From contig NZ_NJIF01000001.1 in the NCBI RefSeq assembly GCF_002209555.1, forward strand, positions 682,001-746,000: a DNA stretch of 64,000 nucleotides. Reading direction: 5' to 3'. The stretch is from Achromobacter insolitus. GTDB lineage: Bacteria; Pseudomonadota; Gammaproteobacteria; Burkholderiales; Burkholderiaceae_B. A program made the translations under genes and the position numbers. Below, in pieces: positions 23,835 through 39,618 of this stretch; positions within the stretch are counted from its first letter, which is position 1; each line of letters opens with the position of its first letter. The notes under the pieces were generated by a model, which was given only the letters and a program-made list of their open reading frames with translations, was not told the DNA's origin and ran no database searches.

Positions 23835-25181
23835 TCAGCGCGCCGCTGCCAGCGCGTCCAGCACAATATCCGCCACCAGCTTCGCCGCTTCCCATTGCGG
23901 CATGTGGCCCGCGTCCGGTAGCAGGTGCAGCGCGGTGCGGGGCGGTGCGTTCAGGGCGTGGCGCCACGGGATGACAGCGTCGCGCCGCCCATGGATCAGC
24001 GTGCAGCGGCACGCGAGATGGTTCAGGTCCTCGACAATGCTCAGCTGCTGCACACCGTCCCAGCTCGCTTCCCTGCACAACTCGATCAGGGGTTCGCGCC
24101 GCGCCTGGGTGCTTTGCCGCAAGGCATCGATGAAATTACCCGACGGCGTCATGCCCGAAACAGTGAGCTTTTGCAGTTCACGCTGCGCCGCCTCGTTGGT
24201 ACCGGCATACGCCATGCCCGTAAGAAAGCTCTGGTTTATCTCCGTGCCCAATCCGACCGGCGCGATGAGGATCAGGCTGTCCACCGCCATGCCGGGCCGG
24301 GACGCGGCACGTGCTGCCACGGCAGCGCCGAATGAATGGCCGATCAGGGTCACGGGTCCGCCGCACAGGAACGCGACGGTATCGACCACAGCGTCGACGA
24401 CCTGTTCGAAGCGTGTCGCCTGCGAGCGCGTCGCGCCATGGCAAGGCAGATCCATCGCCAGCACACGCAGCCCCGCACGGCTGAGCGCATGCGCCAGGCT
24501 GGCCCAGGCGTCGCGGTCGCCGAACATGCCGTGTATGAGCACGGCGGTCTGGCTGTCCGGGCTGCTTGCCTCCCAGACCGTGAACCGGACGTCGCCATGG
24601 GGGGTTGTCGCCCAGCCCTCGCGCTTGTCGCCCTGCGCTCCCCGCAACTGCATGCGATCCTGCCCGCTTGTGCCCGCCTGACCGAGGTCGGCCACGGTCA
24701 CGCGGCCATTGGGGCCCGACCCCTCCACCCCATCCAGCGCAATACCGTGCTCGGCCGCGACGCGCCGGGCGGCGGGGGTGGAGAACTTGCGCACGCCCGA
24801 CGGTAAAGCATGCGCCGGCTGGGCCGGCCGGACCGGCTGCGCCGCCGCGGGCGCGGGGGTCGGCGAGGCCGGCGGCACCTGCGTGCCACTGGGATGGGGC
24901 GATGCGGACTGCGGCTGCGACTTGAGCGGCGCCTCCCCCTCCATCTGGATTCTCGCGATTACCGTGTCCGCGTTGACTATGCCGTCCACGGCGACCAGGT
25001 GTTCCACCATGATCCCGTCATCATGCGCCGGCACCTCGATGATGGACTTGTCCGTTTCAATCTCGACCAGCACATCGCCCGTCTTGAAGGCCTGGCCCGG
25101 CGCCACGATCCAGGCGACCAGGCGGGCGGCGTCCAGGGCTTCGCCCGTCGGCGGGACGACCATATCCAGCGTTCTCGTCAT
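23835..25181 (-). CDS. AcoC-type E2 subunit (lipoyl domain plus alpha/beta-hydrolase-fold acyltransferase)
   Basis: Acyltransferase component of an acetoin/2-oxoacid dehydrogenase complex. Domains in order: lipoyl domain 1-80 with lipoyl-lysine K45 in ETDKS; Pro/Ala linker 85-128; E3/E1-binding domain about 130-168 (STPAARRVAAEHGI); then an alpha/beta-hydrolase domain 195-448 with triad candidates S283 (GHSFG), D401 and H426. This architecture is that of AcoC of acetoin dehydrogenase, not of pyruvate dehydrogenase E2. Last gene of the 12-kb sulfonate-type operon, 18 bp after the VOC gene. No E3 (dihydrolipoamide dehydrogenase) gene is present, so a housekeeping E3 must serve. Confidence 0.9.
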   Translation of the reverse strand: MTRTLDMVVPPTGEALDAARLVAWIVAPGQAFKTGDVLVEIETDKSIIEVPAHDDGIMVEHLVAVDGIVNADTVIARIQMEGEAPLKSQPQSASPHPSGTQVPPASPTPAPAAAQPVRPAQPAHALPSGVRKFSTPAARRVAAEHGIALDGVEGSGPNGRVTVADLGQAGTSGQDRMQLRGAQGDKREGWATTPHGDVRFTVWEASSPDSQTAVLIHGMFGDRDAWASLAHALSRAGLRVLAMDLPCHGATRSQATRFEQVVDAVVDTVAFLCGGPVTLIGHSFGAAVAARAASRPGMAVDSLILIAPVGLGTEINQSFLTGMAYAGTNEAAQRELQKLTVSGMTPSGNFIDALRQSTQARREPLIELCREASWDGVQQLSIVEDLNHLACRCTLIHGRRDAVIPWRHALNAPPRTALHLLPDAGHMPQWEAAKLVADIVLDALAAAR

Positions 25182-25199
25182 GCTCTTTCCTTCAAAAGG

Positions 25200-25652
25200 T
25201 CAGGCCGCCGGGCTCATGAACTGGATGAACTCCGTGATGGCCCCTTCGGGCTCCATCAGATAGAAGACCTTGGTGCGTCCCTGCCGCATGACCCGCGGCG
25301 ACGAAACGCTTTCATAGCCTGCCTGCGTCGCCTGCTCATATACGGCGTCCACGTCCTCCACTTCGAAGGCCATATGGCTGTAGCCGAAGTCACATTGGCG
25401 GCGCGGCTGCTTGTCGCCGTCCGGCGTGTAGTACTTGAACAGCTCGACCCGGTGCCCGCCATGGCGCAGCATGGCCCAGCGTATGGTGGCGCCCGGCAGG
25501 CCGACCACTTCGCCCAGCGCCGGTTCGGAGCGATGGTCCATTTCGCCCTCCAGCTCGAAGCCCAGAAAGCCGGTGTAGAAGTTCCGCGCGCGCTCGAAAT
25601 CGTTGACGCATACGGCGGTGTGGTGGGTAGCGAGCAGTTTGTCTTTCAGCAT
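25200..25652 (-). CDS. VOC (glyoxalase/dioxygenase fold) family protein
   Basis: A 150-residue metalloprotein of the vicinal-oxygen-chelate superfamily, two beta-alpha-beta-beta-beta modules. Likely metal ligands are the histidine in ATHHTAVCV, the glutamate in HRVELFKYY, the histidine in GYSHMAFEV and the glutamate in AITEFIQF. The family includes glyoxalase I, epimerases and dioxygenases; the reaction cannot be told from sequence. It is encoded between E1 and E2 of a thiamine/lipoate complex, with GGGAGAGACC ahead of the ATG. In that position an isomerase or detoxifier for a reactive aldehyde or ketose intermediate is plausible, but this is inference. Confidence 0.85.
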   Translation of the reverse strand: MLKDKLLATHHTAVCVNDFERARNFYTGFLGFELEGEMDHRSEPALGEVVGLPGATIRWAMLRHGGHRVELFKYYTPDGDKQPRRQCDFGYSHMAFEVEDVDAVYEQATQAGYESVSSPRVMRQGRTKVFYLMEPEGAITEFIQFMSPAA

Positions 25653-25680
25653 TGGTCTCTCCCAGGCTGGGGCGCCTGCA

Positions 25681-27909
25681 TCAGCGGGATCCGCCGCGGC
25701 GGCTGTCCATGGTTTTCAGGGCCGTTTCCACGGCTTGAGCGTCCGCCAGCGCCGCGCGCTCCAACACCTTGGACACCACCGGCGAGGAGTTGGCGCCCGT
25801 AACATGCACGATCTCGTGGTCCAGCCAGTCGAACAACCGGGACTGGGCCTCGCTCGCCACTCGCGAGCCGATCGAGGTGCCACGCGTGGTCTGCTCGACG
25901 ATCATCAGCGCCTGCGTGCGCTTGACGCCAGCCCCGATGGTTTCCCAATCGATGCCCAGCGGATCCAGCGTGCGCAGGTCTATCACCTGGGCGTCTACGC
26001 CCGTCCGCTCCGCCGCCTGGCAGCAGACCTCGACCATGACGCCGTAGGTCAGGATGGTGCAGCGCGCGCCCTCGCGCGCCACTCGGGCGCGGCCGATGGG
26101 CACGATGTAGTCCCAGGCCTCGGCCGGCACCTTGTCCACTTTCTTGAACAGATCGTTGTATTCCACCATCAGCACCGGATCGTCGCAGCGCAGCGCCGCA
26201 TTGAGCAGCCCGATGTAGTCATAAGGCCGCGACGGCGCCAGGATGCGCCATCCGGGGTACTGGGCGAACAGGCCGCTGGCGTCCATGGAATGCTGCGACC
26301 CATAGCCGGTGCCTGCGGTGACCCGGCTGCGCACCAGCACTGGCACCGCGAACTTGCCACCGAACATGTGGCGCACCTTGGCAATCTGATTGAACAGCTG
26401 ATCCGCCGCCACCAGCGCGAAGTCCGGATACATGATCTCCACCACCGGGCGCATGCCATTGAGCGCCGCGCCCAACGCCAGACCGGTAAAACCGTTCTCG
26501 CAGATGGGCGTGCCGATGAGGCGCTGCGGGAAATGATCGCCGATGTCCTTGGTGGCACCGGCCGTTCCGCCCTTCAGGCGATGCACGTCCTCGCCCAGGA
26601 TGAAGATACCGTCATCGCGCTGCATGTTCAGCAACATGGCGCGCGAAATCACGTCCTGGAACTTGGCGTCCACCAGGGCTGCGGGCGCCTGCTCCTCCAG
26701 CTCCACGGCGCGCTGGCCGGCAAGCTCGCGCAGATCGCCACGAATGCCGCTATCCACGCCGGCCGGGTCTGGCCACAGCTCGGGCCGGATGCGCTGCGCG
26801 GCCTCGTCGCCGTAGTTTTCCAGCAGCCGTTCCAGCGCGCCGTCTATCAGTTCGTCGGCGCGGCGCTCCAGGCGGCTGATGCCGGCGTCGTCGATCAGGC
26901 CCAGCGATTTCAGCTGCGCCGGAAAGGCCAGGATGGGGTCGCGCGCCCCCCAGGCCTCTTCCTCTTCCTTGTCGCGGTAGCGGAAGGCGCTGCCCTTCAG
27001 GGCGCCCGACTGGTGCAGATAACGGTACGTCTGCGCCTCCAGCAGCACCGGCCCGCCCTCGCGGCGGATGATGGCGCGGGCCTCCTGCATGGCCAGCCGC
27101 GCGGCCACGACGTCCATGCCGTCGAACTCGATGGCCGGCACGCCCAGGGACAGGCCGCGCGCCGACAGACGGGTCTCGCGGGTCTGCTCCGAAACGTGGG
27201 TCGAGACCGCGTACAGATTGTTTTCCACGAAGAAAATGGTGGGCGTGCTATAGAGCGCCGCCAGGTTCATGGCCTCGTACGCGGCGCCGCTCTGCATGGC
27301 GCCGTCGCCGAAGAAGGCCACGGACACGTGGTCGCGCCCCCGTAGCTTGTCGGCGAAGGCGTAGCCCACCGCATGCGAGGGATTGCCGCCCACAATGGCG
27401 TTGGAGCCATAGATGCCCGCCTCGGGATAGCGCAAGTGCATGGACCCGCCGCGGCCGCCGCAATAGCCTGGCGTGAGGCCCAGGATTTCGGCATAGGTCC
27501 GGTAGACCACATCGCGGTGCGAGTCCAGGGTTTGCGATTCCAACGGCGAATAATCCGCCGGCGTGGCGTGGTTCAGCGCCTTGGCAAGGAATTGGTGGTG
27601 CATGCGGTGGGTGCCGTTGATCTTGTCAGCCGACTCCAGTACCGACATGGCGCCCACGGCCGCGCCGTCCTGGCCGATGCTGGAGTGCGCCGGACCATGC
27701 AGAATGCCGGCAACACTCAACTTCAGCAGCTTCTCCTCGAAGCGGCGGATCACGATCAACTGCTCCAGCATGCGGACCATTGCACGCGGCTCGATGGCCC
27801 CCGCATCGGCGGCGCTGGGGGTAAGCCTCCACCACGGCGTTTCGGTATGCAGGGCGGCCAGCCGCGAGGTCTTCGCGGCAGGCGCCGCGCCTTCATTGAT
27901 ATGCTTCAT
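25681..27909 (-). CDS. fused E1 alpha-beta subunit of a 2-oxoacid/acetoin dehydrogenase complex (TPP)
   Basis: Thiamine-diphosphate dehydrogenase that transfers an acyl group to the E2 lipoyl arm. Residues 1 to about 395 are the alpha part, with the TPP motif from GDG (201-203) to NN (230-231) and the phosphorylation-loop-like GRGGSMHL (152-159). Residues about 405-742 are the beta part (DGIFILGEDVHRLKGGTAGA, ENGFTGLALGAALNGMRPVV). In most complexes these are two genes, so the fusion is notable. It follows the ABC ATPase by 11 bp and precedes VOC and E2. Acetoin dehydrogenase is the nearest picture, but the sulfonate-type neighbours argue for another ketone or 2-oxoacid. Confidence 0.9.
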   Translation of the reverse strand: MKHINEGAAPAAKTSRLAALHTETPWWRLTPSAADAGAIEPRAMVRMLEQLIVIRRFEEKLLKLSVAGILHGPAHSSIGQDGAAVGAMSVLESADKINGTHRMHHQFLAKALNHATPADYSPLESQTLDSHRDVVYRTYAEILGLTPGYCGGRGGSMHLRYPEAGIYGSNAIVGGNPSHAVGYAFADKLRGRDHVSVAFFGDGAMQSGAAYEAMNLAALYSTPTIFFVENNLYAVSTHVSEQTRETRLSARGLSLGVPAIEFDGMDVVAARLAMQEARAIIRREGGPVLLEAQTYRYLHQSGALKGSAFRYRDKEEEEAWGARDPILAFPAQLKSLGLIDDAGISRLERRADELIDGALERLLENYGDEAAQRIRPELWPDPAGVDSGIRGDLRELAGQRAVELEEQAPAALVDAKFQDVISRAMLLNMQRDDGIFILGEDVHRLKGGTAGATKDIGDHFPQRLIGTPICENGFTGLALGAALNGMRPVVEIMYPDFALVAADQLFNQIAKVRHMFGGKFAVPVLVRSRVTAGTGYGSQHSMDASGLFAQYPGWRILAPSRPYDYIGLLNAALRCDDPVLMVEYNDLFKKVDKVPAEAWDYIVPIGRARVAREGARCTILTYGVMVEVCCQAAERTGVDAQVIDLRTLDPLGIDWETIGAGVKRTQALMIVEQTTRGTSIGSRVASEAQSRLFDWLDHEIVHVTGANSSPVVSKVLERAALADAQAVETALKTMDSRRGGSR

Positions 27910-27920: not shown

Positions 27921-28739
27921 TCAATGAGCCGCGGCCAAGGCGGCGTCCAGCGGTTCGGTCTCCTGCGCGCGCAGCAGCTTCCAGATGTGTGTGCGCAGAT
28001 GCACGAACGCCTCCATGTCCATCACGTCTTCGATCCGCTCCATGCTGTCCCAGTCCTCGCGCTTGCGCACGTCGGCCACGTTGATGATTTCCTTGATCTG
28101 GCCCGGCCGCCCGGTCAGCACCACCACGCGGTCCGACAGGTACACGGCTTCCTCCACGCTGTGGGTGATGAACAGCACGGTGCGCGGATTGAGCCGGGAC
28201 AGTTTGACCAGTTCTTCCTGCATGACCACGCGGGTCTGGGCATCCAATGCGCCGAACGGCTCGTCCATCAGCAGCACATCGGGATCCAGCGCGTAGCTGC
28301 GCGCGATGGCGACGCGCTGCTGCATGCCGCCGGACAACTGGTGCGGATACGCCTGCTCGTAGCCAGACAGGCCCATGAGCTCGATATAGCGCGCCACGGT
28401 CCGTGCCCGCGCCTCGCGCGAAGCGCCCTTGCACTTCAGGCCGAAGCCGATGTTTTCGGTCACGGTCTTCCACGGAAACAGCGCGAACTGCTGGAACACG
28501 ACGGCGCGGTCGGGACCGGGCTCCTCCACTTCCTTGCCCCCCACGCGCACGCTGCCTGCCGACGGGAATTCCAGGCCCGCCGCCATGCGCATCAGCGTTG
28601 TCTTGCCGCAGCCGGAGGGCCCGACGATGGAAACGAACTCCCTTTCGCCCACCTCGAAACTGACGTCATCCAGCGCGAGAAAGCGCTCCCCGCCCCGGCT
28701 GAACGTGCGCTGCACCCGCTCGAAAGTAATCTGACTCAT
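27921..28739 (-). CDS. ABC transporter ATP-binding protein, nitrate/sulfonate/taurine type (SsuB/TauB)
   Basis: A 272-residue cytoplasmic ATPase with Walker A GPSGCGKTT (40-48), signature LSGGMQQRVAIARS and Walker B DVLLMDEPFGALD, followed by the FITHSVEEAVYLSDRV H-loop region typical of SsuB/TauB. It is the only ATPase gene for two binding proteins and four permeases in this locus, so it probably drives both permease pairs. It lies 36 bp after one binding-protein gene and 11 bp before E1, inside the operon. Confidence 0.95.
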   Translation of the reverse strand: MSQITFERVQRTFSRGGERFLALDDVSFEVGEREFVSIVGPSGCGKTTLMRMAAGLEFPSAGSVRVGGKEVEEPGPDRAVVFQQFALFPWKTVTENIGFGLKCKGASREARARTVARYIELMGLSGYEQAYPHQLSGGMQQRVAIARSYALDPDVLLMDEPFGALDAQTRVVMQEELVKLSRLNPRTVLFITHSVEEAVYLSDRVVVLTGRPGQIKEIINVADVRKREDWDSMERIEDVMDMEAFVHLRTHIWKLLRAQETEPLDAALAAAH

Positions 28740-28775
28740 GCTTGCGTTCCTTTGTTGAGAACCGCGGCCGCTGGC

Positions 28776-29858
28776 CTACTTTGCGACATCGGCGACGAAG
28801 GCCCTGAGTTTGGGATCGTCCTGGATCATCTGCAGATACTTGCCCGTGACCATGGTCTTGGGATCGGGGATCTTCTTGACCACGCCCACGGACACCATGA
28901 ATTCGCCCACGCTGTTCCACCACCCCACGATCTCGGAAGTGCCGCCGGGACCTGGGGCGAACAGCCTGGTCTGCTCGGCCAGATCGAACGCGGGCCGGTC
29001 GCGCAGCTCCTGCTCCAGGTACTTGTCGGGGAATTTCACGCCCACGCTGCCGAAGAACGCCTTCAGATATGCCTTGGCCTCCTCGGGATGCGCCCGCTGC
29101 CAGGCCACCGCGCGCAGATAGACCGCCAGGAAGCGAGCCACCTTGTCCGGATGCTGCCTGGCGAATCCCGGCGTGGTGAAGAGGTAGCTGTGGATGGGCA
29201 TCTTCAGCTCGGCGCCGGTGCAGATCACCTTTGCGCCGATGGCTTCCTCCAGGATGTAGGTATTGGGCGCCCACACGGACGAGATGTCGTACTTGCCGCT
29301 CATCACCGCGGCGTTGATGTCCGGCGGAGACAGATTCACGAAGCGGTAGTCATCGGGTTTGAGCCCGAACTTCTTCGACAGGCATTCGGCGGCTCCCCAA
29401 TGGCCCGTGGAATTGCTGGTGACGGGTATGGTCTTGCCTTTAAGCAGCGCCGGGTTCTTGAGATATTCGTCCGCCCGGTCCTTGGTCGCCATCAGCGTGA
29501 TGATGGCGGCCTCTCCATCAGCAATGCCGATGGTCTGCAAGCCGTACTTCGACGCCCCGAGCAGCGAGGGAATATTGCCCGCCCCGCCTACGTCCCAGGA
29601 CCCCGAGGCGCCCGCCGCAATCTCCACGGCCCCGGAGGCGAAGGTCGAGATCTCGGGCTTCAGGCCCACTTCTTGCCACCAGCCCTTCTCGCTGGCGATG
29701 TACCACTCCAGCGCCCACCGCTGCGGCTGCTGCCCGATGCGGATGGTGAACAGTTCCGCGCCCGCGGGCGCGGCCTGGGCCGCCGCCTGTCCGGGTCCCC
29801 CCAGCCAGCACCCGATCACGAGCGCTGCCAAGGCCTTGAGGCCTTTGTATGGTTTCAT
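28776..29858 (-). CDS. ABC transporter substrate-binding protein, SsuA/TauA (NMT1) type, copy 1
   Basis: A 360-residue periplasmic receptor for an organosulfonate-like ligand. The signal peptide ends near residue 28 (GPGQAAAQA); the mature part shows WYIASEKGWWQEVGLKPE and SWDVGGAGNIPSLLG, the family ligand cleft. The ATG at 29858 follows GGAGAGAGACAG. It is clearly paralogous to the second binding protein at the start of the operon, sharing these two blocks almost word for word. Family members bind taurine, alkanesulfonates, nitrate, bicarbonate or aromatics; the neighbouring HpsN- and YihU-like enzymes favour a sulfonate. Confidence 0.9.
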   Translation of the reverse strand: MKPYKGLKALAALVIGCWLGGPGQAAAQAAPAGAELFTIRIGQQPQRWALEWYIASEKGWWQEVGLKPEISTFASGAVEIAAGASGSWDVGGAGNIPSLLGASKYGLQTIGIADGEAAIITLMATKDRADEYLKNPALLKGKTIPVTSNSTGHWGAAECLSKKFGLKPDDYRFVNLSPPDINAAVMSGKYDISSVWAPNTYILEEAIGAKVICTGAELKMPIHSYLFTTPGFARQHPDKVARFLAVYLRAVAWQRAHPEEAKAYLKAFFGSVGVKFPDKYLEQELRDRPAFDLAEQTRLFAPGPGGTSEIVGWWNSVGEFMVSVGVVKKIPDPKTMVTGKYLQMIQDDPKLRAFVADVAK

Positions 29859-29927
29859 CTGTCTCTCTCCAATATGGAATGCCGCTACTCGCACTGCCTG
29901 CCTGTATCCCCTCCTTCTCCGTTCCGA

Positions 29928-30746
29928 TCAGCGCGACCAATCGCGCTGCACGCGCCGTTGCAAGGCCCGCATGGCGAAATCAATGCCCGCGCCTATCAAG
30001 CCGATGGTGATCATTCCGCTGATTACGATGGCGGGCTCAAGATTGCTGCCGCCCTGCACGATCATGTAGCCCAAGCCGGTGGAACCCACGATCAGCTCGG
30101 CACCGATCAGCGATTGCCAGCCGAACCCCGCTCCGACTCGGATGCCGGCAACGATGTGCGCCAGCGAGGCCGGCAGCAGGATTTCGGTCAGCGTCGCCCA
30201 GCGTCCGGCCCCCAGCATCTGGCCTGCCTCGATCAAGGCGCGGTCGATCTGCTTGGCGCCGCGGTAGGCGTTCAATACGCAGGGCGCGAAGGCTCCGGCG
30301 AAAATCACCAGCGTGGGCGACAGGAACCCGGTGCCGAACCAGAAGATCGCGAAGGGCACCCACGCGATGGGAGGAATGAAGCGAAACGCCTCGAACACCG
30401 GCGCCACCGCCCAGTCCAGCGCCTTAAAGCGTCCCATGAACAAGCCCAGCGGCACGCCCAGGAGGACGGCGATGGAGAAACTGATCAGGAATTTCTCCAG
30501 GCTGGCCAGCAGGTGCATCTGCAGTACCGAACCCGCATAGGGTTCGCGCGTGTGCTCGACCATGCTGCGCAACACGGTCAGCGGTCCCGGCAGGAAGGCC
30601 GGCGACACCAGGCCCAGGCCGGAGAGCAGCGCCCAGCCGCCGAACAGAGTAGCGATGCCCAGCGCCGGCATCAGCCAACGTTCCGCCGTGCGGCGGGACA
30701 CCAGGCAGCGCCCGCGGGCCAAGCCAGCGCTGTTCAGGCTTTCCAT
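29928..30746 (-). CDS. ABC transporter permease, SsuC/TauC type, pair 1 member b
   Basis: A 272-residue inner-membrane permease. The cytoplasmic EAA region is ALIEAGQMLGAGRWATLTEI; the central FRFIPPIAWVPFAIFWFGTG block is the SsuC-type signature. The start at 30746 overlaps the preceding permease gene by 13 bp, indicating coupling. It resembles the permease at 38.8 kb more than its own partner, so the two permease pairs arose by duplication of a pair. Together with the adjacent permease it forms a heterodimeric channel. Confidence 0.92.
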   Translation of the reverse strand: MESLNSAGLARGRCLVSRRTAERWLMPALGIATLFGGWALLSGLGLVSPAFLPGPLTVLRSMVEHTREPYAGSVLQMHLLASLEKFLISFSIAVLLGVPLGLFMGRFKALDWAVAPVFEAFRFIPPIAWVPFAIFWFGTGFLSPTLVIFAGAFAPCVLNAYRGAKQIDRALIEAGQMLGAGRWATLTEILLPASLAHIVAGIRVGAGFGWQSLIGAELIVGSTGLGYMIVQGGSNLEPAIVISGMITIGLIGAGIDFAMRALQRRVQRDWSR

Positions 30747-31624
30747 GGCATCACCCTGCGTTCGACTTGCGCGAGCAGCGCGGACATCAACATGCCCATA
30801 CCCGCCACGGCGGCCATGGCCACCACGATCATTCCCGAGTTCAGGTCCCGGGTGGCGATGATCAGCACGTGGCCCAGGCCGACAAAGGAGCCGACCAGTT
30901 CGGCCGCCACCAGCACCATCCAGCAGGCCTGCAGCGACGTCCGCAGACCGGTGAAGATAGCGGGCAGCGCGCCCGGGACGATGACGTCCAGCAACATCAG
31001 GCGGCCAGCCGCCCCATTCACCCGCGCCGCCTGGATCAACGTATCGTCGATATTGCGCACGCCGGTGTAGGTGTTGATCACAGTGGGCGCGAAGGCCGCC
31101 AGCCAGATGACGAAGACCTTCGCGCTGGTGCCCAGCCCGAACCACAGTATCGTCAGCGGGATCCAGGCAATGGGCGCAATCGGGCGGATGATCTGGAACA
31201 CCGGATTGACGTAGGCTTCGACCAGCCGGCTTTGCCCCATCAGGATGCCCAACGGCACGCCAGTCAAGGCCGCCGCCGCGAAGCCGTACAGCACCAGCAT
31301 GCTGCTGGCCGCGACGTGTTGCAGCAATGTGCCGTCGGCATAGCCTTCACCGGCAATCTCCCGCAAGGCGTCCCAGGCATCGACGGGCGACGGCAACTGC
31401 ACCGCGCTCAGCAGCTCCAGCGGTCCTGTAGCCAGATACCAGGCCAAGAGCAGCGCCGCGACCGATGCGCCGCTGACCAGCCAGCGCAGGGACAGGCGCC
31501 GGCGTGCCGGCGTCGGTGGGTGGGCGGGGGGCCTGGCAATGGTCATGACGGCGCTCCGGTCGAGCAGGCCCAGGACGGCCTGGGCGCCGGCGATGGCGCG
31601 GGGTGAAAGTGAATGGCGCGCCAT
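30734..31624 (-). CDS. ABC transporter permease, SsuC/TauC type, pair 1 member a
   Basis: A 296-residue inner-membrane permease with the block IRPIAPIAWIPLTILWFGLG and the EAA loop TLIQAARVNGAAGRLMLLDV. The chosen ATG comes one base after the dehydrogenase stop (TGACATG) with GAGGG upstream. A second ATG at 31546, preceded by CGGAG, would remove 26 polar residues and is equally credible. It is paralogous to the first permease of the plus-strand pair at 38.0 kb. Confidence 0.9.
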   Translation of the reverse strand: MARHSLSPRAIAGAQAVLGLLDRSAVMTIARPPAHPPTPARRRLSLRWLVSGASVAALLLAWYLATGPLELLSAVQLPSPVDAWDALREIAGEGYADGTLLQHVAASSMLVLYGFAAAALTGVPLGILMGQSRLVEAYVNPVFQIIRPIAPIAWIPLTILWFGLGTSAKVFVIWLAAFAPTVINTYTGVRNIDDTLIQAARVNGAAGRLMLLDVIVPGALPAIFTGLRTSLQACWMVLVAAELVGSFVGLGHVLIIATRDLNSGMIVVAMAAVAGMGMLMSALLAQVERRVMPWKA

Positions 31625-31625
31625 G

Positions 31626-32615
31626 TCAATGCGCCCTCAGCACGATCTTGGCCGATGCCGCGCGTCCGCCGTCCAGGTCGGAGAAGGCCTGCGCGCCCGC
31701 ACCCAGCTCACGCTGCTCGATCCAGGACAGATCGCCGAAAACGCCTCGATGCAGAGCGTCCACGGTCGCTCGCAGATCCGCGCTGGTGTAGGTGTAGGCG
31801 CCGATCAGGGTGATCTCGTCCAGAGTCAGCCGGCGCATGTCGATCTCGCTGGCCCAATCCTGCAGGCCGATGTGCAGCATCACGCCGCCCGGCTGCACCG
31901 CGGCCAGCGCGGCCGGCCTTGTAAGCTTGCCACCCACCGCGTCCACCACTAGTTCGTACGCCCCCGCCTCGGGCGTCGTGTCGCGTGGATCGAAGGCCAT
32001 GCAGCCAACATGCCGTTCTGCCGAGGCGCGCCGCAACGGATTGGTTTCGGCCAGGCTGACGCGGCAGCCCTGGCTGCGCAGCAACAGCGCCGTCAAAAGA
32101 CCGATGGCGCCGCCACCCACGACCAGCGCGCGGGCTTCGGCCAAGGGTCGGAACAGCGCCCGCTGCGCCAGCGCCACGCCATGCAAGGCCGTGGCTGCGG
32201 GCTCGGTCAGCGCCGCCGCGGCGGCTGGCATGTCCTGCGGCACGGGGATCAGGCAACGCTCGGGGATGGCCATGAACTCGGCGAATGCGCCGGGACGGGT
32301 CATGCCCACCATGCCCCGGTTGCGGCACAGGTTGTTGCGGCCCTGCACGCAAAAATCACATTGGCCGCAATGGATCAGCGGATTACCGGTGACCCGCTGG
32401 CCCGCGCGGCTGCCGCCCACCAGCGTGCCAACGAACTCATGGCCCAGGATCAGCGGCGGATTACGGCGCGGATCATGCCCGTGATAGGCGTGCATGTCCG
32501 AGCCGCAGATGCCCACGGCCTCGATACGCAAGAGCGCGTCGCCGTCTCCCGGCACTGGATCCGGTTCCTCGCGGAACATCATCTGGCTGGGCGCGGTGTA
32601 GACAAGGGCTTTCAT
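31626..32615 (-). CDS. zinc-dependent alcohol dehydrogenase (MDR), candidate HpsO/HpsP-type sulfonate polyol 2-dehydrogenase
   Basis: NAD(P)-dependent oxidation of a secondary alcohol in a polyol-like substrate. The 329-residue protein has catalytic zinc ligands C37 (GICGSD) and H59-E60 (LGHE), structural zinc cysteines C83, C86, C89 and C97, and a Rossmann motif VVGGGAIGL near residue 167. It resembles threonine/sorbitol dehydrogenases. In the described HpsNOP pathway two 2-dehydrogenases interconvert the enantiomers of 2,3-dihydroxypropane-1-sulfonate; this gene and the SDR beside it would fill those roles next to the HpsN-like gene. The role is inferred from context. Confidence 0.8.
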   Translation of the reverse strand: MKALVYTAPSQMMFREEPDPVPGDGDALLRIEAVGICGSDMHAYHGHDPRRNPPLILGHEFVGTLVGGSRAGQRVTGNPLIHCGQCDFCVQGRNNLCRNRGMVGMTRPGAFAEFMAIPERCLIPVPQDMPAAAAALTEPAATALHGVALAQRALFRPLAEARALVVGGGAIGLLTALLLRSQGCRVSLAETNPLRRASAERHVGCMAFDPRDTTPEAGAYELVVDAVGGKLTRPAALAAVQPGGVMLHIGLQDWASEIDMRRLTLDEITLIGAYTYTSADLRATVDALHRGVFGDLSWIEQRELGAGAQAFSDLDGGRAASAKIVLRAH

Positions 32616-32639: not shown

Positions 32640-33413
32640 TCAGCGGGCCGAAAAGCCGCCATCTACGAACAAGGTCTGCCCGGTGATGTAGGCCGACGCC
32701 TCGCTTGCCAGGAAGACGGCTGCGCCGTGCAGATCATCCAGCCGGCCGTTGCGACCCATCATGGTGCTGGCCGCAAGGGCCTGAACCCGGGCCGGATCGC
32801 TCATCACCGAGGCGGTCAGCGGCGTCTCGAAAAAGCCTGGCGCTATCGCGTTGCAGGTGACGCCATGGCGCGACCAGTACTCGGCAATGGCGCGGGTCAG
32901 CTGCATCAGGCCACCCTTGGAGGCGCCATAGGGCGCGCTGTCCGGAAAGGCGCGCACGCATTGCAGCGAGGTGATATTGATGATGCGGCCCCAGCCCCGC
33001 TCTCGCATGGCAGGGGCCAGCGCGCGAGTCAGCAGGAACGGCGCGGTCAGGTTGATCGCCAGGGACCGGTCCCAGTCCTCGTCGGCGGTGTCCTCGAAAG
33101 GCTTGCGCACATTGATGCCCGAAGCGTTGACCAGGATGTCGGGCGCGCCGAACGGTTCGGCCGCGCGGGCCGCAAGGGCGCGCAGCGCCTCGCGGTCGCT
33201 CAGGTCGCAGGTCAAGGCACGCGCCCGCAAGCCCGCCGCCTCGAACTCGCCAGCGGCGCAAGCGAGCTCCTGCGCGCGCCGCGCCACCAGCACCACGCTG
33301 GCGCCCGCCCGAGCCAGCGCCAGGCCGATGGTCTTGCCTATGCCGGAGCTGCCGCCGCTCACCAGCGCAACGCGGCCGTCCAGGTCGAACAGGCGGGACA
33401 TGTCGTTCTGCAT
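32640..33413 (-). CDS. short-chain dehydrogenase/reductase, candidate HpsO/HpsP-type enzyme
   Basis: A 257-residue NAD(P)-dependent SDR. The coenzyme motif is GGSSGIG (20-26), the structural asparagine is in LVNASG (N96), and the catalytic residues are S149, Y162 and K166 (PYGASKGG). It starts 7 bp after the HpsN-like gene and is followed by a zinc alcohol dehydrogenase, the same three-enzyme set as in known DHPS catabolism. It may be one of the two 2-dehydrogenases that racemise DHPS, or a sulfolactate dehydrogenase making sulfopyruvate; the sequence does not decide. Confidence 0.82.
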   Translation of the reverse strand: MQNDMSRLFDLDGRVALVSGGSSGIGKTIGLALARAGASVVLVARRAQELACAAGEFEAAGLRARALTCDLSDREALRALAARAAEPFGAPDILVNASGINVRKPFEDTADEDWDRSLAINLTAPFLLTRALAPAMRERGWGRIINITSLQCVRAFPDSAPYGASKGGLMQLTRAIAEYWSRHGVTCNAIAPGFFETPLTASVMSDPARVQALAASTMMGRNGRLDDLHGAAVFLASEASAYITGQTLFVDGGFSAR

Positions 33414-33420: not shown

Positions 33421-34764
<1,344 letters not shown>

Positions 34765-35817
34765 TCAGTTGGCCTTGTTGGCAAAGGTCTTGAGCGCCGG
34801 GGTCTGGTCGACCCGCTTCATGTAGTCGTCCGTGATGTAGGTCTTGGGATCCGGCACCTCGGTGAGCGTGCCCACGCTCTTCAGGTAGCCAGATAATGCC
34901 TCGTACGCGTTGTCCAGCGTGGACTTGCCGCCTGTCCGCGACATCAGCTTGAGCTGCTCGTCCAACGTGAAGATCGGCCGTTCCAGCTCCTGCCCGAGAT
35001 AACCGTCATTGAGCTTGATGCCATTGGCCTGGAACAGTTTGCGCAGGTAGCCCATGGCTTCCGCCTTGTTGTTCTTCTCGAAGCTGACGGCCCGCAGGTA
35101 CACCGCCAGGAACTTGGCGACGGCGTCTGGATTCTGTTGGGCGAACTCACCTCGCGCCACCAGCGCCCCCGGGATCATCACGCCGGCGTCCTTGCCGCTG
35201 CACACAACCTCCGCGCCGCTTTGCTCGTTCAGCGTGTAGAAGTTCGGCGCCCAGGTGCCGGCCAGCATGCCATTGCCTCCGATGAAGGCGGACACCAGTT
35301 GCGCCGGGGCCAGCGTCACCACGCTGACGTCGCTGCGTTGCATGCCCCACTTCTGCAGGCAGGCCATGGTCGCGTATTCCCCGGTGGAGTTCGGGCTGAG
35401 CAGGATCTGCTTGCCCTTCACTTCCTTGGCCGCGTTGCTGCGCACGGCAGCGGCGTTCTCCTTGCGCGCCATCACGCCGTTGGCGGTCGATTCGTCATTG
35501 GTGACGCCCAGCGTCACGATGCCGTAGCGCTGCGCGCCCAGCACCGCCGGCGGCGAGCCCGTGCCGCCCACATCCCAGGACTTGGACGCGGCGCCCGCGA
35601 TCTGCTGCGCGCCCGCGGGATACACCACGAATTCAGGTTTCAGGCCCGCTTCGGCCCACCAGTTCTTTTCCGTAGCGATGTAGATCGGCAGCGCCCAATA
35701 GGCGATCTGGTAGCTGACTTTGATGGGGGTCGGCGCCTGCGCCGACACGGACGGGCTCAACAACAAGGCGCCCAGCGGCGCCAGGCACAAACCCAGGATG
35801 CGGGGGATTCTCGACAT
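34765..35817 (-). CDS. ABC transporter substrate-binding protein, SsuA/TauA (NMT1) type, copy 2
   Basis: A 350-residue periplasmic receptor and first gene of the long minus-strand operon. The signal peptide ends near residue 27 (SVSAQA). The cleft blocks IYIATEKNWWAEAGLKPEF and SWDVGGTGSPPAVLG parallel those of copy 1. GGAGACTAAGC precedes the ATG. Its promoter region contains a LacI-type half-conserved operator and it is divergent from the LacI gene. Two receptors on one transporter suggests two related ligands or two affinities. Confidence 0.92.
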   Translation of the reverse strand: MSRIPRILGLCLAPLGALLLSPSVSAQAPTPIKVSYQIAYWALPIYIATEKNWWAEAGLKPEFVVYPAGAQQIAGAASKSWDVGGTGSPPAVLGAQRYGIVTLGVTNDESTANGVMARKENAAAVRSNAAKEVKGKQILLSPNSTGEYATMACLQKWGMQRSDVSVVTLAPAQLVSAFIGGNGMLAGTWAPNFYTLNEQSGAEVVCSGKDAGVMIPGALVARGEFAQQNPDAVAKFLAVYLRAVSFEKNNKAEAMGYLRKLFQANGIKLNDGYLGQELERPIFTLDEQLKLMSRTGGKSTLDNAYEALSGYLKSVGTLTEVPDPKTYITDDYMKRVDQTPALKTFANKAN

Positions 35818-35912
35818 GCTTAGTCTCCGTCAGTGGATTCCGGTCTGCATGCGCGAGCTGCCGCGGCATTCCCCGGATAGCAGGCCCGGATCTGCGTTCG
35901 GGCTCGATTTTT

Positions 35913-35926
35913 TGAAAGCGCATACA
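35913..35926. promoter_or_regulatory. LacI-type operator, operon side
   Basis: TGAAAGCGCATACA shares the first nine bases of the perfect palindrome found before the LacI gene, with a degenerate right half. It is about 100 bp upstream of the first operon gene; the two operator centres are 109 bp apart, suitable for looping. Confidence 0.55.
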
Positions 35927-36021
35927 AAGAATAAGCGCGCAAGAATCGCATTCAACCCCGAGAAAACCCTAGAAATAGACCATAGCGTTTCAATAACTGT
36001 ATATTCACACCATCAAATTTC

Positions 36022-36035
36022 TGAAAGCGCTTTCA
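36022..36035. promoter_or_regulatory. LacI-type operator TGAAAGCGCTTTCA
   Basis: A perfect 14-bp palindrome with the central CG typical of LacI/GalR operators, ending 3 bp before the regulator start codon. Binding here should repress the LacI gene and probably the plus-strand operon. Confidence 0.8.
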
Positions 36036-36038
36036 AAC

Positions 36039-37091
36039 ATGAAGCGAAAGTCTGCGCCCCTACCCGGGGACACCCTGAAGTCGATCGCCGCCGCCGGCGG
36101 CATCTCGTCGGCCACCTTGTCGCGGGTGCTGAACCATCCCGAAAAAGTGCGGCCGGACCTGCGCGCCCGCGCCATGGCACTACTTGCCGAAGCGGGCTAT
36201 GTTCCGCACGGCGCAGCCCGTTCGCTGGCCTCGCGCAAGACCCGCACCATGGGCGCCATCATCCCCACGGTGGATAGCGCCCTGTTCGCCAAGCTGGTCG
36301 ATGGCATGCAGCAGGCAATCCATGAACACGGCTACCAGCTGCTGCTGGCCAGCACCAACTACAGCCCTGCGCGCGAGGCCGGAGAAGTGCGCGCCCTGAT
36401 CGAGCGCGGCGTCGACGCGATGATGCTGGTGGGACGCAGCCGCGACCCCGAACTCTACGAGTTGCTGCATTCCAAAGGCATTCCCTTCGTCACTACCTGC
36501 CACTACGACGACGCCGATCCCTGGCCGATGGTGGGCTGGGACAACGCCGCGGCGGCGCAGCGCATCGCCGACTATCTGCTGGACATCGGCCACCGCCGCC
36601 TCGGCGTGATCGCCGGCATCTCCAAAGACAATGACCGCGCGGCCGACCGCGTGGCCGGTTTCACGCGCGCGCTCAAGCGGCGCGGCATCGACCTGCCGCC
36701 GCAGTACGTCATTGAAAAGCCCTACACCGTGCCCGAAGCTCGCCGCGCCATGGCCACGCTGCTGCGTTTGCCCGAACCGCCTACGGCGGTCATGTGCGGC
36801 AACGACATCCTGGCCTATGGCGCATTGCAGGAGTGCCTGTGGCAGAACCTGCGCGTGCCCGAACAGATTTCGATCACGGGATTCGACAACATCGAAATGG
36901 CCGCCCACTGCCGGCCAGGCATTACGACCCTGAACGTGCCGGCCTTTGAACTGGGACAGCGAGCCGCCAACATCCTGCTGGCCGCCGACGCCGACACGCC
37001 GCCCGAAAACGTCTGCATTGAACTGGAACTGATCGTCCGCGATACCACCGCCCCGCCACGCAGCAGCACCAGCGCGCGGCTAGGCAGCTGA
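36039..37091 (+). CDS. LacI-family regulator of the sulfonate-type locus
   Basis: A 350-residue repressor. The helix-turn-helix and hinge (LKSIAAAGGISSATLSRVLN at 11-30, then GYVPHGAARSLASRKT) precede a periplasmic-binding-like sensor domain from about residue 70 (MGAIIPTVDSALFAKLVDGM). It lies between the two divergent operons of the locus and has LacI-type palindromes on both sides, so it is the likely local repressor of all of them. The inducer is probably the imported substrate or an early product such as sulfolactaldehyde; inference only. The next gene starts 19 bp downstream. Confidence 0.93.
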   Translation: MKRKSAPLPGDTLKSIAAAGGISSATLSRVLNHPEKVRPDLRARAMALLAEAGYVPHGAARSLASRKTRTMGAIIPTVDSALFAKLVDGMQQAIHEHGYQLLLASTNYSPAREAGEVRALIERGVDAMMLVGRSRDPELYELLHSKGIPFVTTCHYDDADPWPMVGWDNAAAAQRIADYLLDIGHRRLGVIAGISKDNDRAADRVAGFTRALKRRGIDLPPQYVIEKPYTVPEARRAMATLLRLPEPPTAVMCGNDILAYGALQECLWQNLRVPEQISITGFDNIEMAAHCRPGITTLNVPAFELGQRAANILLAADADTPPENVCIELELIVRDTTAPPRSSTSARLGS

Positions 37092-37110
37092 CCACACCGG
37101 AGCAATCCCC

Positions 37111-38034
37111 ATGGAACACACCGAATCACCCCGCATCGCATTCCTGGGCCTGGGCGTCATGGGGAGCGCGATGCTGCGCAACCTGGCCGCGCAGGGGTAT
37201 GCCGTATCAGGCTACGACGTCGTGCCGGCCGCGATGGAGCGCTTGGCGGACACCGGGTTCCGTCGGGCCGCTACACCGCTCGACGCCGCGCGCGGCTGCG
37301 ACGTGGCGATCACCATGCTGCCCACGTCCTCGCACGTGCGCGACGCCCTGTTCGGCGCCGACGGCGCGGCCGCGGGCTTGAACCCGGGCGCGCTGGTCAT
37401 CGAGATGAGCACCGGTGACGCCGTGGAGACCGACCGCATCGCCGCCGACCTCGCGGCCCTGGGCCTGCGCTGCCTCGACGCCCCGGTCGGACGCACGCCG
37501 CGCGAGGCGGCGCAGGGCAAGGCGCTGATCATGGCGGGCGGCGCGCAGGCCGACTTCGACCAGGCCGCGCCCATCTTCGCCGCCATGGCCGATGAGATCG
37601 TGCACGTGGGGCCTTTCGGCTCAGGCATACGGCTCAAGCTCGTCAACAACTACATGTCCATGGTTGGCATGGTGCTGACGGGCGAGGCGCTGATGTTCGC
37701 CGCCAAGCTGGGCCTGGACCGCGCCACCGTCGTCAAGGTGCTATCCAACACCACCGCGGGGCGCGGACAACTCCTGACGAATTTTCCGGGCAAGGTGCTG
37801 GCGGGCGACATCAGTCCCGACTTTCCCATGCGCATGGGCTACAAGGACATCAACCTGGCCATGAACCTGGCCGCCTCGGTGGGTGCGCCCCTGGGGCTCG
37901 GCGGCTATGCCCGCGAAATGTTCGCGCTGGCCAAGTCCTGGGGACGCCAGGAACAGGACTGCACCGCCATGCTGCTATTGCTGGAAGATGTGGCGAACCT
38001 GCACCGCCAAGCCGCGAGGTCCGGCCATGAGTGA
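37111..38034 (+). CDS. YihU-like 3-sulfolactaldehyde reductase / DHPS 3-dehydrogenase (beta-hydroxyacid dehydrogenase family)
   Basis: NAD(H)-dependent interconversion of sulfolactaldehyde and 2,3-dihydroxypropane-1-sulfonate is predicted. The 307-residue protein has the Rossmann motif GLGVMG (13-18) and, instead of the family-standard PVSGG, the segment DAPVGRTP with R128. K176, N179 and S183 in KLVNNYMSM complete the set. As I recall them, the sulfonate-binding residues of E. coli YihU are R123, K171, N174 and S178, a constant offset of five. GYKDINLAMN and GRQEQDCTAML also parallel YihU. It follows the LacI gene and overlaps the next permease gene by 8 bp. The link to a C3 sulfonate is therefore sequence-based, though untested. 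Confidence 0.85.
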   Translation: MEHTESPRIAFLGLGVMGSAMLRNLAAQGYAVSGYDVVPAAMERLADTGFRRAATPLDAARGCDVAITMLPTSSHVRDALFGADGAAAGLNPGALVIEMSTGDAVETDRIAADLAALGLRCLDAPVGRTPREAAQGKALIMAGGAQADFDQAAPIFAAMADEIVHVGPFGSGIRLKLVNNYMSMVGMVLTGEALMFAAKLGLDRATVVKVLSNTTAGRGQLLTNFPGKVLAGDISPDFPMRMGYKDINLAMNLAASVGAPLGLGGYAREMFALAKSWGRQEQDCTAMLLLLEDVANLHRQAARSGHE

Positions 38035-38836
38035 GCACATCGCAACCCTGCCCGCCCGGCGGCCGCGCGTATCGCGCCGCCGCGTCACCGTCGGCGTGGC
38101 CGCGGTCGCCGCCGCCTTCGCCGCCTGGTGGATCGTGTCGGCGCTGGGCCTGGTCAATGGCGCGCGCTTCCCCACCCCGCTCACTACGTGGCAGGCGGCC
38201 GTGCAGCTGTCGCGGGACTCCGGCTACGCCGGCGGCACGCTGTTCCAGCACATCGGGCACAGCCTGCGCCTGGTGTTCCTGGGTTTTCTGGTGGCTATCT
38301 GCACCGGCGTGCCGCTGGGCTTATTGATGGGATTCAGCAAGCGCATCGACGCCCTGGTCGGACCGGTGTTCTCGCTGCTGCGCCCGATCCCGCCACTGGC
38401 CTGGATTCCTCTGGCGATCCTGTGGCTGGGCCTGGGCGACCCGGCGAAAATCTTTCTCATCTGGGTGTCCTCGTTCACGCCCGCCGTCATCAACACCTAC
38501 GCGGGGGTGCGCAATATCGACCCCACGCTGATCGAAGCCGCGCGCGTGCATGGCGCGGGCAGTCCGCTTCGCATGCTGCGCGAGGTGCTGGTGCCCGGCG
38601 CCATGCCCATGATCTTCACCGGCCTGCGCCTGTCGCTGCAGACGGCCTGGATGACCCTGGTGGCAGCGGAACTCATCGGCGCCTTTATCGGGCTGGGCAA
38701 GGTGCTGGACACCGCGGCGCTGGACATCCGGCCCGGCATGATCCTCTACGCCATGGTCTGGGTGGGCCTGCTGGGAGCGGTGATGACGCGCGGATTGGAA
38801 TGGATCGAAAAGAGGGCTTTGCCATGGCTACGCTGA
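38027..38836 (+). CDS. ABC transporter permease, SsuC/TauC type, pair 2 member a
   Basis: A 269-residue inner-membrane permease with LRPIPPLAWIPLAILWLGLG and the EAA loop TLIEAARVHGAGSPLRMLRE. The ATG overlaps the reductase stop by 8 bp. Closest relative in the window is the first permease of pair 1. No ATPase or binding-protein gene accompanies this pair on the plus strand, so it must share the ATPase and probably a binding protein of the divergent operon. Confidence 0.92.
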   Translation: MSEHIATLPARRPRVSRRRVTVGVAAVAAAFAAWWIVSALGLVNGARFPTPLTTWQAAVQLSRDSGYAGGTLFQHIGHSLRLVFLGFLVAICTGVPLGLLMGFSKRIDALVGPVFSLLRPIPPLAWIPLAILWLGLGDPAKIFLIWVSSFTPAVINTYAGVRNIDPTLIEAARVHGAGSPLRMLREVLVPGAMPMIFTGLRLSLQTAWMTLVAAELIGAFIGLGKVLDTAALDIRPGMILYAMVWVGLLGAVMTRGLEWIEKRALPWLR

Positions 38837-39618
38837 CACGCGCCTCGGGCGATACGCCCGCCTTCACCTTCGGCCTGTCGTGCCTGGGACTGGCCGGTTT
38901 CTTCCTGGCCTGGCATCTGTTGAGCGTGGGCGGTATCTTCCCGCCCAACTACCTGCCCGGTCCGCTGACGGTGCTGCAAACCATCGCGCAGTACAGCAGC
39001 GAGCCGTACTCCGGCGCCACGCTCTGGACGCATCTGGGGGCCAGCCTCTACCGCTTCGCCTGCGGCTTCCTGCTAGCTGCGGCGGTGGGCATACCGCTGG
39101 GGCTGCTGATGGGCTGGTACCGCTGGCTGGATGACGTGGTCAGCCCCTTCTTCGACGCACTGCGCTTCGTGGCGCCCATCGCGTGGGTGCCGTTTGCCGG
39201 CCTGTGGTTTGGCACGGGCATCGGCGGCCCGACGCTGATCATCTTCGCAGGCGCCTTTCCGCCCTGCCTCATCAGCGCCTACCGCGGCGCCAAGTTCGTC
39301 GACACGCGCCTGCTGGAAGCCTCGCGTACCTTGGGCGCGAGCGGGCCGCGCATCGTGGCGGAAGTGCTGCTGCCAGCCTCGCTGCCGTCCATCCTGGCGG
39401 GCCTGCGCGTCAGCGCCGGCATCGGCTGGCAATCGCTGGTAGGCGCAGAATTGATCGTGGTAGGCAACGGCATCGGCTACATGATGGTGCAGGGCCAGCT
39501 CAACATCGCCACCAACATCGTCATGGCGGGCATGATTGCCATCGGCATCGTCGGCATCTGCATCGACGTCGCCCTGCGCGTGTTCGAACAGCGCCTGAAG
39601 GCGCGTTGGGGACGCTGA
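38824..39618 (+). CDS. ABC transporter permease, SsuC/TauC type, pair 2 member b
   Basis: A 264-residue inner-membrane permease with LRFVAPIAWVPFAGLWFGTG and the EAA loop LLEASRTLGASGPRIVAEVL. Its ATG lies 13 bp inside the preceding permease gene, the same overlap as in pair 1, which supports duplication of a gene pair. It is the last gene of the LacI operon and converges on a GntR gene. Confidence 0.92.
   Translation: MATLTRASGDTPAFTFGLSCLGLAGFFLAWHLLSVGGIFPPNYLPGPLTVLQTIAQYSSEPYSGATLWTHLGASLYRFACGFLLAAAVGIPLGLLMGWYRWLDDVVSPFFDALRFVAPIAWVPFAGLWFGTGIGGPTLIIFAGAFPPCLISAYRGAKFVDTRLLEASRTLGASGPRIVAEVLLPASLPSILAGLRVSAGIGWQSLVGAELIVVGNGIGYMMVQGQLNIATNIVMAGMIAIGIVGICIDVALRVFEQRLKARWGR

Follow-up and report, generated by a model that had tools for sequence, protein, structure and literature searches.

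A 64,000-nucleotide stretch of the Achromobacter insolitus genome (the window; contig C11, positions 682001-746000 of a 6.44-Mb genome) contains 15 genes that very probably constitute a regulon for the C3 sulfonate 2,3-dihydroxypropane-1-sulfonate (DHPS). This assignment, already made in an earlier note on the same DNA, is adopted because three of the encoded proteins match HpsN, HpsO and HpsP by sequence identity and a fourth carries the motif of YihU, and it is borne out by the residues of these four proteins, by an operator-like palindrome and by conservation in other genomes. The regulon also includes genes for a thiamine/lipoate-dependent complex, consisting of a fused E1 and an AcoC-like E2, and for a vicinal oxygen chelate (VOC) protein. 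Our best overall explanation, which we advance tentatively, is a DHPS regulon in which a sulfolactate branch is accompanied by an E1-E2 branch leading to a C2 sulfonate.

The best solved-structure match of the window HpsN is the sulfopropanediol 3-dehydrogenase 8v35 (724 bits), and the protein is 73% identical to HpsN encoded on a plasmid of Cupriavidus pinatubonensis (CpHpsN; our reference record for Cupriavidus is plasmid p2 of C. pinatubonensis strain HN-2). According to excerpts of PMC11382572, the sulfonate is held by His126 and Lys353 of HpsN, and the catalytic residues are Glu318, His319 and Asp352. The window protein keeps Asp46, His126, Ser226, Glu318, His319, Asp352, Lys353 and His359 (CpHpsN numbers), the sulfonate-binding pair being His127 and Lys354 in its own numbering, and is predicted to oxidise R-DHPS to sulfolactate. 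The histidinol dehydrogenase of the genome, HisD, has Tyr at both sulfonate positions (126 and 353 of CpHpsN); a role of HpsN as mere histidinol dehydrogenase is ruled out by these residues and by the separate HisD. The short-chain dehydrogenase/reductase (SDR) and zinc alcohol dehydrogenase beside it, previously named by family, could be refined to orthologues of HpsO (54% identical to CpHpsO) and HpsP (59% to CpHpsP). HpsO has the Ser145/Gln147/Tyr158/Lys162 pattern with the published spacing (SLQCVRAFPDSAPYGASK), and HpsP has a GHE motif with His59 and a TEP motif at 137-139; DsHpsP fell outside the alignment. The patterns described in excerpts of PMC11131964 are Ser-x-Gln...Tyr...Lys for HpsO, and His59, Glu60 and a Glu near 139 for HpsP. 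Both enzymes were initially proposed to be 2-dehydrogenases (PMC11382572, in part), and DHPS is described as oxidised by them at C3 to sulfolactaldehyde (SLA; PMC11131964, in part).

The reductase encoded downstream of the regulator gene has Escherichia coli YihU as its best solved-structure match, and it contains PVGRT where the relative 3pdu has PVSGT. We take this motif of YihU to bind the sulfonate. PVGR[T/S] is present in all 31 YihU homologues compared (the window and 30 further loci), as in E. coli YihU. The E2 combines lipoyl, E3-binding and alpha/beta-hydrolase domains, the architecture of acetoin dehydrogenase, with no match to a CAT domain. The E2 and reductase scores fall below the equivalog cut-offs (269.9 versus 307 bits for AcoC; 282.1 versus 348 for the YihU model of NCBIfam); for this reason, both proteins are named '-like'.

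The 15 genes, at 23835-39618, are arranged as two divergent operons around a LacI-family gene, as found by open reading frame (ORF) listing and hidden Markov model (HMM) scans. Downward from 35817, the minus-strand operon encodes a binding protein, HpsN, the SDR, the zinc alcohol dehydrogenase, two permeases, a second binding protein, an ATPase, the fused E1, the VOC protein and the AcoC-like E2; the plus-strand operon, from 36039, encodes the LacI-family regulator, the YihU-like reductase and two further permeases. Every open frame of the gene set listed in the earlier note was recovered at its coordinates, with families assigned by HMM, and its tight minus-strand spacing stands, although the distances run from -13 to +69 bp and not from 1 to 69 bp. 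In the 221-bp divergent intergenic region lies the perfect palindrome TGAAAGCGCTTTCA (36022-36035), the only exact copy in the genome. A genome scan with this pattern returned 14 further sites with two mismatches, among them a second site in the window, TGAAAGCGCATACA; a reversed control pattern gave 6. All seven named Achromobacter loci (L064-L069, L071) carry the palindrome in perfect form and L070 carries a copy with one mismatch, while three distant loci from metagenome-assembled genomes (MAGs; L098, L100, L101) contain two such sites apiece, near-palindromic and each one base off. As sequence anatomy, a single LacI regulon with predicted operators is well supported.

The fused E1 scores below the pyruvate dehydrogenase (PDH) equivalog cut-offs (alpha part 234.3 versus 393.85 bits; beta part 250.9 versus 454). 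In a midpoint-rooted tree, 53 fused E1s came out as a starred group on long branches, distinct from the AcoAB rows, so that the E1 could not be placed with AcoAB or PDH by tree; a fused Leisingera pdhA grouped with other rows and not with these 53. The window E1 belongs to a starred clade of 40. The residues M103, S169, N176, H179, Y183 and G473 are found in 35/35 members of the in-group (C470 in 33/35), which was drawn up without the clade members L089, L091, L096 and L097, and in at most one of 13 other fused E1s; judging from E1 structures, these residues presumably line the thiamine pocket. For the VOC protein, profile searches returned glyoxalase I and, more weakly, methylmalonyl-CoA epimerase. 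Its H-E-H-E set, which we take to be the metal ligands of those enzymes, is invariant in 10 of 10 aligned homologues, and the structure model has a mean pLDDT (predicted local distance difference test) of 83. More broadly related fused E1s, 47-53% identical to that of the window, are encoded on contigs C21 (L051) and C28 (L052) of the same genome and in loci L053-L063. The neighbours across L051-L063 include SDRs, CAT-type E2, often E3, in some cases a different VOC protein, and in several cases ATP-binding cassette (ABC) transporters of the branched-chain type.

To place the complex in a wider context, a collection of 84,980 species was scanned with an alignment of four close E1s, which gave 49 loci. 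The closest named loci are in seven Achromobacter genomes, with E1 89-95% identical. The core of the conserved module consists of fused E1, metal-type VOC, YihU-like reductase and usually AcoC-type E2, and it occurs in Achromobacter, Burkholderiaceae PBA, Candidimonas, Nitratireductor, Afifella, Oceaniglobus, four Roseovarius including R. nubinhibens ISM, Azospirillum oleiclasticum, a Lautropia MAG and other MAGs. Gene orders are shuffled between lineages and regulators are LacI- or IclR-like. Importers are of the ABC type in Achromobacter, Candidimonas, PBA and Acidocella, and of the tripartite ATP-independent periplasmic (TRAP) type in Nitratireductor, Afifella, Roseovarius, Azospirillum, Lautropia and Gammaproteobacteria MAGs. 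Chance clustering of the window genes is ruled out, as a closely similar set is found again in different orders in other lineages. The earlier note proposed a search for co-occurrence of hpsN with fused E1 and AcoC-type E2: in 16 of the 49 loci, hpsN is no more than 10 kb away from E1, and AcoC-type E2 is a neighbour in 24 of the 37 clade loci with a called E1 (E1 was not called in L094 and L099). In these 37, VOC is found within 8 kb of E1 in 33 and a CAT-type E2 in one, L079, with Pfam domains checked in L079, L083 and L098. Other fused-E1 loci had CAT-type E2 in 10/10 and E3 in 8/10.

In L098, L100 and L101, one strand carries LacI-YihU-permeases-ATPase-HpsN-HpsO-HpsP-E1-VOC-E2 without the second transporter set, an order that differs from that of the window, and E1 is 61% identical. 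L079, from Nitratireductor indicus, reads DctQ-DctM-E1-VOC-YihU-DctP-E2-Xsc-Pta, all in one direction, with both Xsc (988.8 bits) and Pta (357.9 bits) over cut-off. Desulfonation genes also adjoin or approach the module elsewhere: suyA-suyB-slcC-comC adjoin it in L100, comDE lies within 10 kb in L084, and genome G233 has hpsN, suyB, a SauT-like gene and xsc on one contig within about 29 kb, its E1 locus L099 being on a contig of equal length. As a separate observation, a split transketolase pair reminiscent of SqwGH adjoins the TRAP genes of the module in L087 (Azospirillum) and L104 (Lautropia MAG).

We further examined co-occurrence at genome level in 37 module genomes, to which counts of 38 add that of the window; loci L078 (same genome as L077), L102, L103, L105-L112 (E1 35-47% identical) and L079 stood outside these searches. 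The control comprised 200 genomes of the window's family, three of which (G000, G003, G027) have a close E1. The xsc gene was present in 34 of the 37 module genomes (33 over cut-off; no xsc was found in the MAGs of L088, L095 and L104) versus 49 of 200 family genomes (48 over cut-off), and, excluding Achromobacter, in 27/30 versus 38/189. Fisher tests, which ignore relatedness and the differing taxonomic make-up of the sets, gave p below 1e-11 throughout, also for the over-cut-off counts. An HpsN-like protein (E ≤1e-100; searched in module genomes only) was found in 34/38, some matches being just 54-58% identical; a close SuyB (at least 66%) in 23/38, plus a fragment in one more; and ComE over cut-off in 5/38, each of them a Roseovarius or Oceaniglobus, while 14 further genomes gave weaker matches. 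Some neighbours of xsc were noted in passing. In L146, L155 and L156, xsc is adjoined by genes for a SauT-like acylating dehydrogenase and for one or two CoA-ligase-like subunits, likely a sulfoacetate cassette. A recurring gene pair (315-329 aa and 547-579 aa), resembling by eye a MoxR-type ATPase and a VWA-type partner, lies near xsc in L147, L148, L149, L151, L152, L159 and L162. Near xsc, L157, L160 and L162 encode a molybdopterin oxidoreductase-like protein (941-978 aa) together with ferredoxin-like and membrane subunits, by eye perhaps a SoeABC-type sulfite dehydrogenase.

In agreement with the earlier note, genome searches gave no xsc over cut-off and no close SuyB or ComE match within the window, but such genes exist elsewhere in the genome. 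A true xsc is located on contig C22 (936 bits versus a cut-off of 676.4), beside pta-like and IclR-like genes, and suyA-suyB on contig C21, with slcC-like (61%) and comC-like (57%) genes; SuyB is 85% identical to CpSuyB and SuyA 78% to CpSuyA. For ComE, no match was obtained in this genome at E 1e-15, and the ComDE sulfopyruvate decarboxylase of the ComDE-Xsc pathway was not found; likewise, no SauT-like match was obtained at E 1e-50. As judged from these genes, the ordinary route from DHPS via sulfolactate to pyruvate and sulfite is complete without the E1-E2 complex, which would therefore form an additional branch or serve a different function.

In the pathway that we propose, a LacI-type repressor would control DHPS uptake and breakdown. 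The sequences support the following steps: import of the sulfonate by two SsuA-type binding proteins, four permeases and one ATPase; conversion of R-DHPS to sulfolactate by HpsN; conversion of sulfolactate to pyruvate and sulfite by SuyAB with SlcC/ComC, encoded elsewhere in the genome; and oxidation of DHPS to SLA by HpsO, HpsP and a YihU-like enzyme that would run in reverse. The VOC protein may racemise SLA or isomerise it to a ketone, as its H-E-H-E set suits a proton-transfer racemase or isomerase of SLA. Fused E1 and AcoC-like E2 may then cleave SLA in the manner of acetoin dehydrogenase: thiamine would attack the aldehyde, the C1-C2 bond would break, sulfoacetaldehyde would leave, and the one-carbon unit would pass via lipoate to formyl-CoA or formate. 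Xsc would convert sulfoacetaldehyde to acetyl phosphate and Pta would yield acetyl-CoA, the sulfolactate branch and the C2-sulfonate branch running side by side. That the module yields a C2 sulfonate passed to Xsc appears reasonably probable. SLA as the substrate of the cleavage is a possibility that we regard with some doubt, and similar reserve applies to the scheme in full, namely a further C3-sulfonate route in which a dedicated thiamine/lipoate complex, a VOC racemase or isomerase and a YihU-type dehydrogenase would oxidatively convert SLA to sulfoacetaldehyde and a formyl unit. The idea in the earlier note of a complex that takes a later C3 intermediate to a C2 sulfonate is supported in part: the xsc counts and the adjacency of xsc-pta in Nitratireductor favor it, while the exact reaction is our inference. 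Its acetoin-type thiolytic cleavage is also kept, with SLA preferred over a ketone as substrate.

The preference for SLA comes from chemistry and from L079. Xsc requires sulfoacetaldehyde, and for the L079 set to lead all the way from DHPS to acetyl-CoA, E1-E2 would have to make sulfoacetaldehyde directly; if sulfoacetyl-CoA were the product, a reductase would be required, and none is present in the L079 stretch or was found in Achromobacter. Xsc itself expels sulfite from a thiamine enamine adjoining CH2-SO3. With the aldehyde carbon of SLA on thiamine, the CH2-SO3 part would leave as sulfoacetaldehyde and no enamine would form beside the sulfonate. Sulfopyruvate or hydroxyacetone sulfonate, by contrast, would give an Xsc-type enamine, so that sulfoacetyl-CoA would be hard to obtain and a desulfonating E1 would be conceivable.

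Several observations weigh against the proposed SLA pathway. YihU acts as an SLA reductase in E. coli (PMC12890257, in part). E3 was found in none of the 37 clade stretches, and tblastn over 50 locus stretches returned only the distant L102; E2 is missing near E1 in 12 of the 37, some cut by contig ends, and no YihU gene lies near the E1s of L089, L091, L096 and L097. The clade of 40 includes an E1 on a Shinella plasmid, with AcoC-type E2 and annotated surroundings without a sulfonate gene. In L079, gaps of 276, 314 and 268 bp and a small minus-strand call mean that a single transcript is not established. All 11 control Achromobacter genomes have xsc and only 2 the module, so xsc is uninformative within that genus. 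Among the genes of the module core, none for formyl-CoA or formate was noticed. The suyAB and xsc stretches of the genome contain no operator-like site at up to 3 mismatches, and a common operator was rejected for them at this threshold. Finally, SauT-like proteins (at least 48% identical), which would fit a sulfoacetyl-CoA product, occur in 22 of 38 module genomes and 17 of 200 family controls, all xsc-bearing; among non-Achromobacter genomes with xsc over cut-off, they are found in 22/26 with the module versus 16/36 without it (p 0.0016). Scoring was limited to the 42 best candidates in larger genomes and to 8 in the control, and absences, such as 0 of 8 Achromobacter, are not absolute.

In two other readings, the complex would form sulfoacetyl-CoA; the SauT distribution, enriched outside Achromobacter but without a match in it, does not decide the matter. 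Were the complex a sulfopyruvate dehydrogenase, HpsN would supply sulfolactate, SlcC/ComC would oxidise it to sulfopyruvate, E1-E2 would form sulfoacetyl-CoA, a SauT-type enzyme would reduce this to sulfoacetaldehyde and Xsc would desulfonate it. Relatives of E1 and E2 do act on 2-oxo acids, HpsN-like proteins are nearly general in module genomes, SauT-like genes lie near xsc in several of them, and Azospirillum oleiclasticum (G221) has HpsN, SauT-like and Xsc with a SuyB match of just 34% and no ComE match, a further point against cleavage of SLA. We nevertheless consider sulfopyruvate an unlikely substrate: the conserved core lacks a sulfolactate dehydrogenase, the five genomes with ComE over cut-off already have a ComDE-type decarboxylase, no SauT-like protein was found in the 8 Achromobacter and the enamine problem applies. 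For these last two reasons, and because the genome already has SlcC-, ComC- and SuyAB-type genes for sulfolactate, this reaction, named first in the earlier note, is not supported as the lead. The SauT result and the enamine problem also count against a complex resembling acetoin dehydrogenase that would cleave hydroxyacetone sulfonate, the 2-ketone of DHPS formed by HpsO/HpsP or VOC, to sulfoacetyl-CoA and formaldehyde. The AcoC-type E2, the SauT enrichment and the initial proposal of HpsO/HpsP as 2-dehydrogenases (PMC11382572, in part) agree with it, but the C3 oxidation by these enzymes (PMC11131964, in part) does not, and we judge it improbable.

The 0 of 8 Achromobacter with SauT instead favors an E1-E2 sulfo-lyase, in which the enamine of sulfopyruvate or hydroxyacetone sulfonate would expel sulfite and the acetyl group would pass to CoA, replacing ComDE and Xsc with no need for E3. 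The lack of E3 in the clade stretches, compared with other fused-E1 loci, and the clade-specific E1 residues point the same way. Such an enzyme would, however, make xsc superfluous in the 34 of 37 genomes that have it and beside the module in L079, and the E2 retains an E3-binding domain; this reading seems quite improbable to us. It is also improbable that the E1-VOC-E2 set works on a non-sulfonated acyloin or 2-oxo acid and is merely co-regulated with the DHPS genes. Related fused E1s do occur in clusters without sulfonate genes, and the E2 and YihU-like scores are below the equivalog cut-offs, but E1, VOC and YihU stay linked in both Alpha- and Betaproteobacteria, and nearly all of the genomes concerned have an HpsN-like gene and xsc.

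The features of the locus, confirmed by ORF listing, translation, codon-usage gene call and HMM scans, are collected in Table 1. Both binding proteins have the SsuA family as their best HMM match, yet below its cut-off, and their nearest solved structures are binders of taurine, sulfonate and nitrate, with weak scores. A 1048-aa open frame at 27924-31070 (+), antisense to the transporter genes, is probably an artefact of GC-rich coding DNA.

Table 1. Genes and operator-like sites of the putative DHPS regulon, in window coordinates
Feature	Position	Strand	Basis
AcoC-like E2; lipoyl, E3-binding and alpha/beta-hydrolase domains; GHSFG at residue 281	23835..25181	-	HMM
VOC protein, glyoxalase I / methylmalonyl-CoA epimerase type; H-E-H-E metal set	25200..25652	-	HMM, alignment
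Fused E1 alpha/beta, thiamine-dependent dehydrogenase; clade-specific residues	25681..27909	-	HMM, tree
ABC transporter ATPase	27921..28739	-	PF00005
SsuA/TauA-type substrate-binding protein 2; under SsuA subfamily cut-off	28776..29858	-	HMM
ABC permease 2	29928..30746	-	PF00528
ABC permease 1	30734..31624	-	PF00528
HpsP, zinc alcohol dehydrogenase	31626..32615	-	59% to Cupriavidus HpsP, residues
HpsO, SDR	32640..33413	-	54% to Cupriavidus HpsO, residues
HpsN, predicted R-DHPS 3-dehydrogenase	33421..34734	-	73% to Cupriavidus HpsN, residues
SsuA/TauA-type substrate-binding protein 1; under SsuA subfamily cut-off	34765..35817	-	HMM
Second LacI-type operator-like site, TGAAAGCGCATACA; upstream of minus-strand operon	35913..35926	.	
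LacI-type operator-like site, perfect palindrome TGAAAGCGCTTTCA	36022..36035	.	
LacI-family regulator; 41% to regulator of Cupriavidus hps cluster	36039..37091	+	HMM
YihU-like SLA/DHPS oxidoreductase; PVGRT motif	37111..38034	+	HMM, structure match
ABC permease 3	38027..38836	+	PF00528
ABC permease 4	38800..39618	+	PF00528

In excerpts of PMC11382572, 272 hpsNOP neighbourhoods are sorted by SuyAB, Xsc and CuyA, and the DHPS scheme has three sulfo-lyase routes, all via sulfolactate. A word search of the main text of that paper found no acetoin, lipo-, pyruvate dehydrogenase, Achromobacter, glyoxalase or YihU, and no description of a thiamine/lipoate module with sulfonate degradation was found in the open-licence papers searched on sulfonates. 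This accords with the earlier note, which knew of no such DHPS pathway. HpsNOP regulons are already known; the added E1-VOC-E2 module is, within the literature searched, a new part of the DHPS regulon. DHPS is a common sulfur compound derived from plants and algae, and together with sulfoquinovose it is among the abundant organosulfur compounds. If the proposal is true, the breakdown of both would be joined to Xsc, bypassing sulfolactate and sulfopyruvate, and a chemistry would be given to an E1-E2 family that has no assigned substrate in the same literature. Genome-based predictions of carbon and sulfite yield from DHPS would then change, with such a module conserved in bacteria of soil and sea, among them Roseovarius nubinhibens ISM.

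Compared with known systems, the locus is closest in its sulfonate enzymes to the hps-suyAB cluster of C. pinatubonensis, with which it shares HpsN, HpsO and HpsP orthologues and a LacI-type regulator. It has ABC transporters where Cupriavidus has a major facilitator superfamily transporter, suyAB lies elsewhere in the genome, and E1, E2, VOC and the YihU-like reductase are added. With AcoABC, it has in common the E1 alpha and beta parts and the lipoyl/E3-binding/alpha/beta-hydrolase E2; in contrast, its E1 is fused and apart from AcoAB in the tree, its E2 is under the AcoC cut-off, VOC and YihU are added, and no acoX-like or acetoin reductase gene was noticed. The genome resembles the SuyAB and SlcD/ComDE-Xsc routes in its suyAB, accompanied by slcC-like and comC-like genes, and in its xsc-pta, but it differs by the thiamine/lipoate complex inside the DHPS operon and by giving no ComE match at the threshold used. 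The PVGRT motif is common to the YihU of sulfoglycolysis, whose E. coli representative is the best PDB match, whereas the window copy lies in a DHPS operon without sulfosugar genes and below the equivalog cut-off. With the sulfo-transketolase SqwGH, the complex would share thiamine-dependent C-C cleavage toward C2 sulfonates (PMC12890257, in part), although it is of the E1-lipoate type and not a transketolase, and a C3 substrate is proposed for it.

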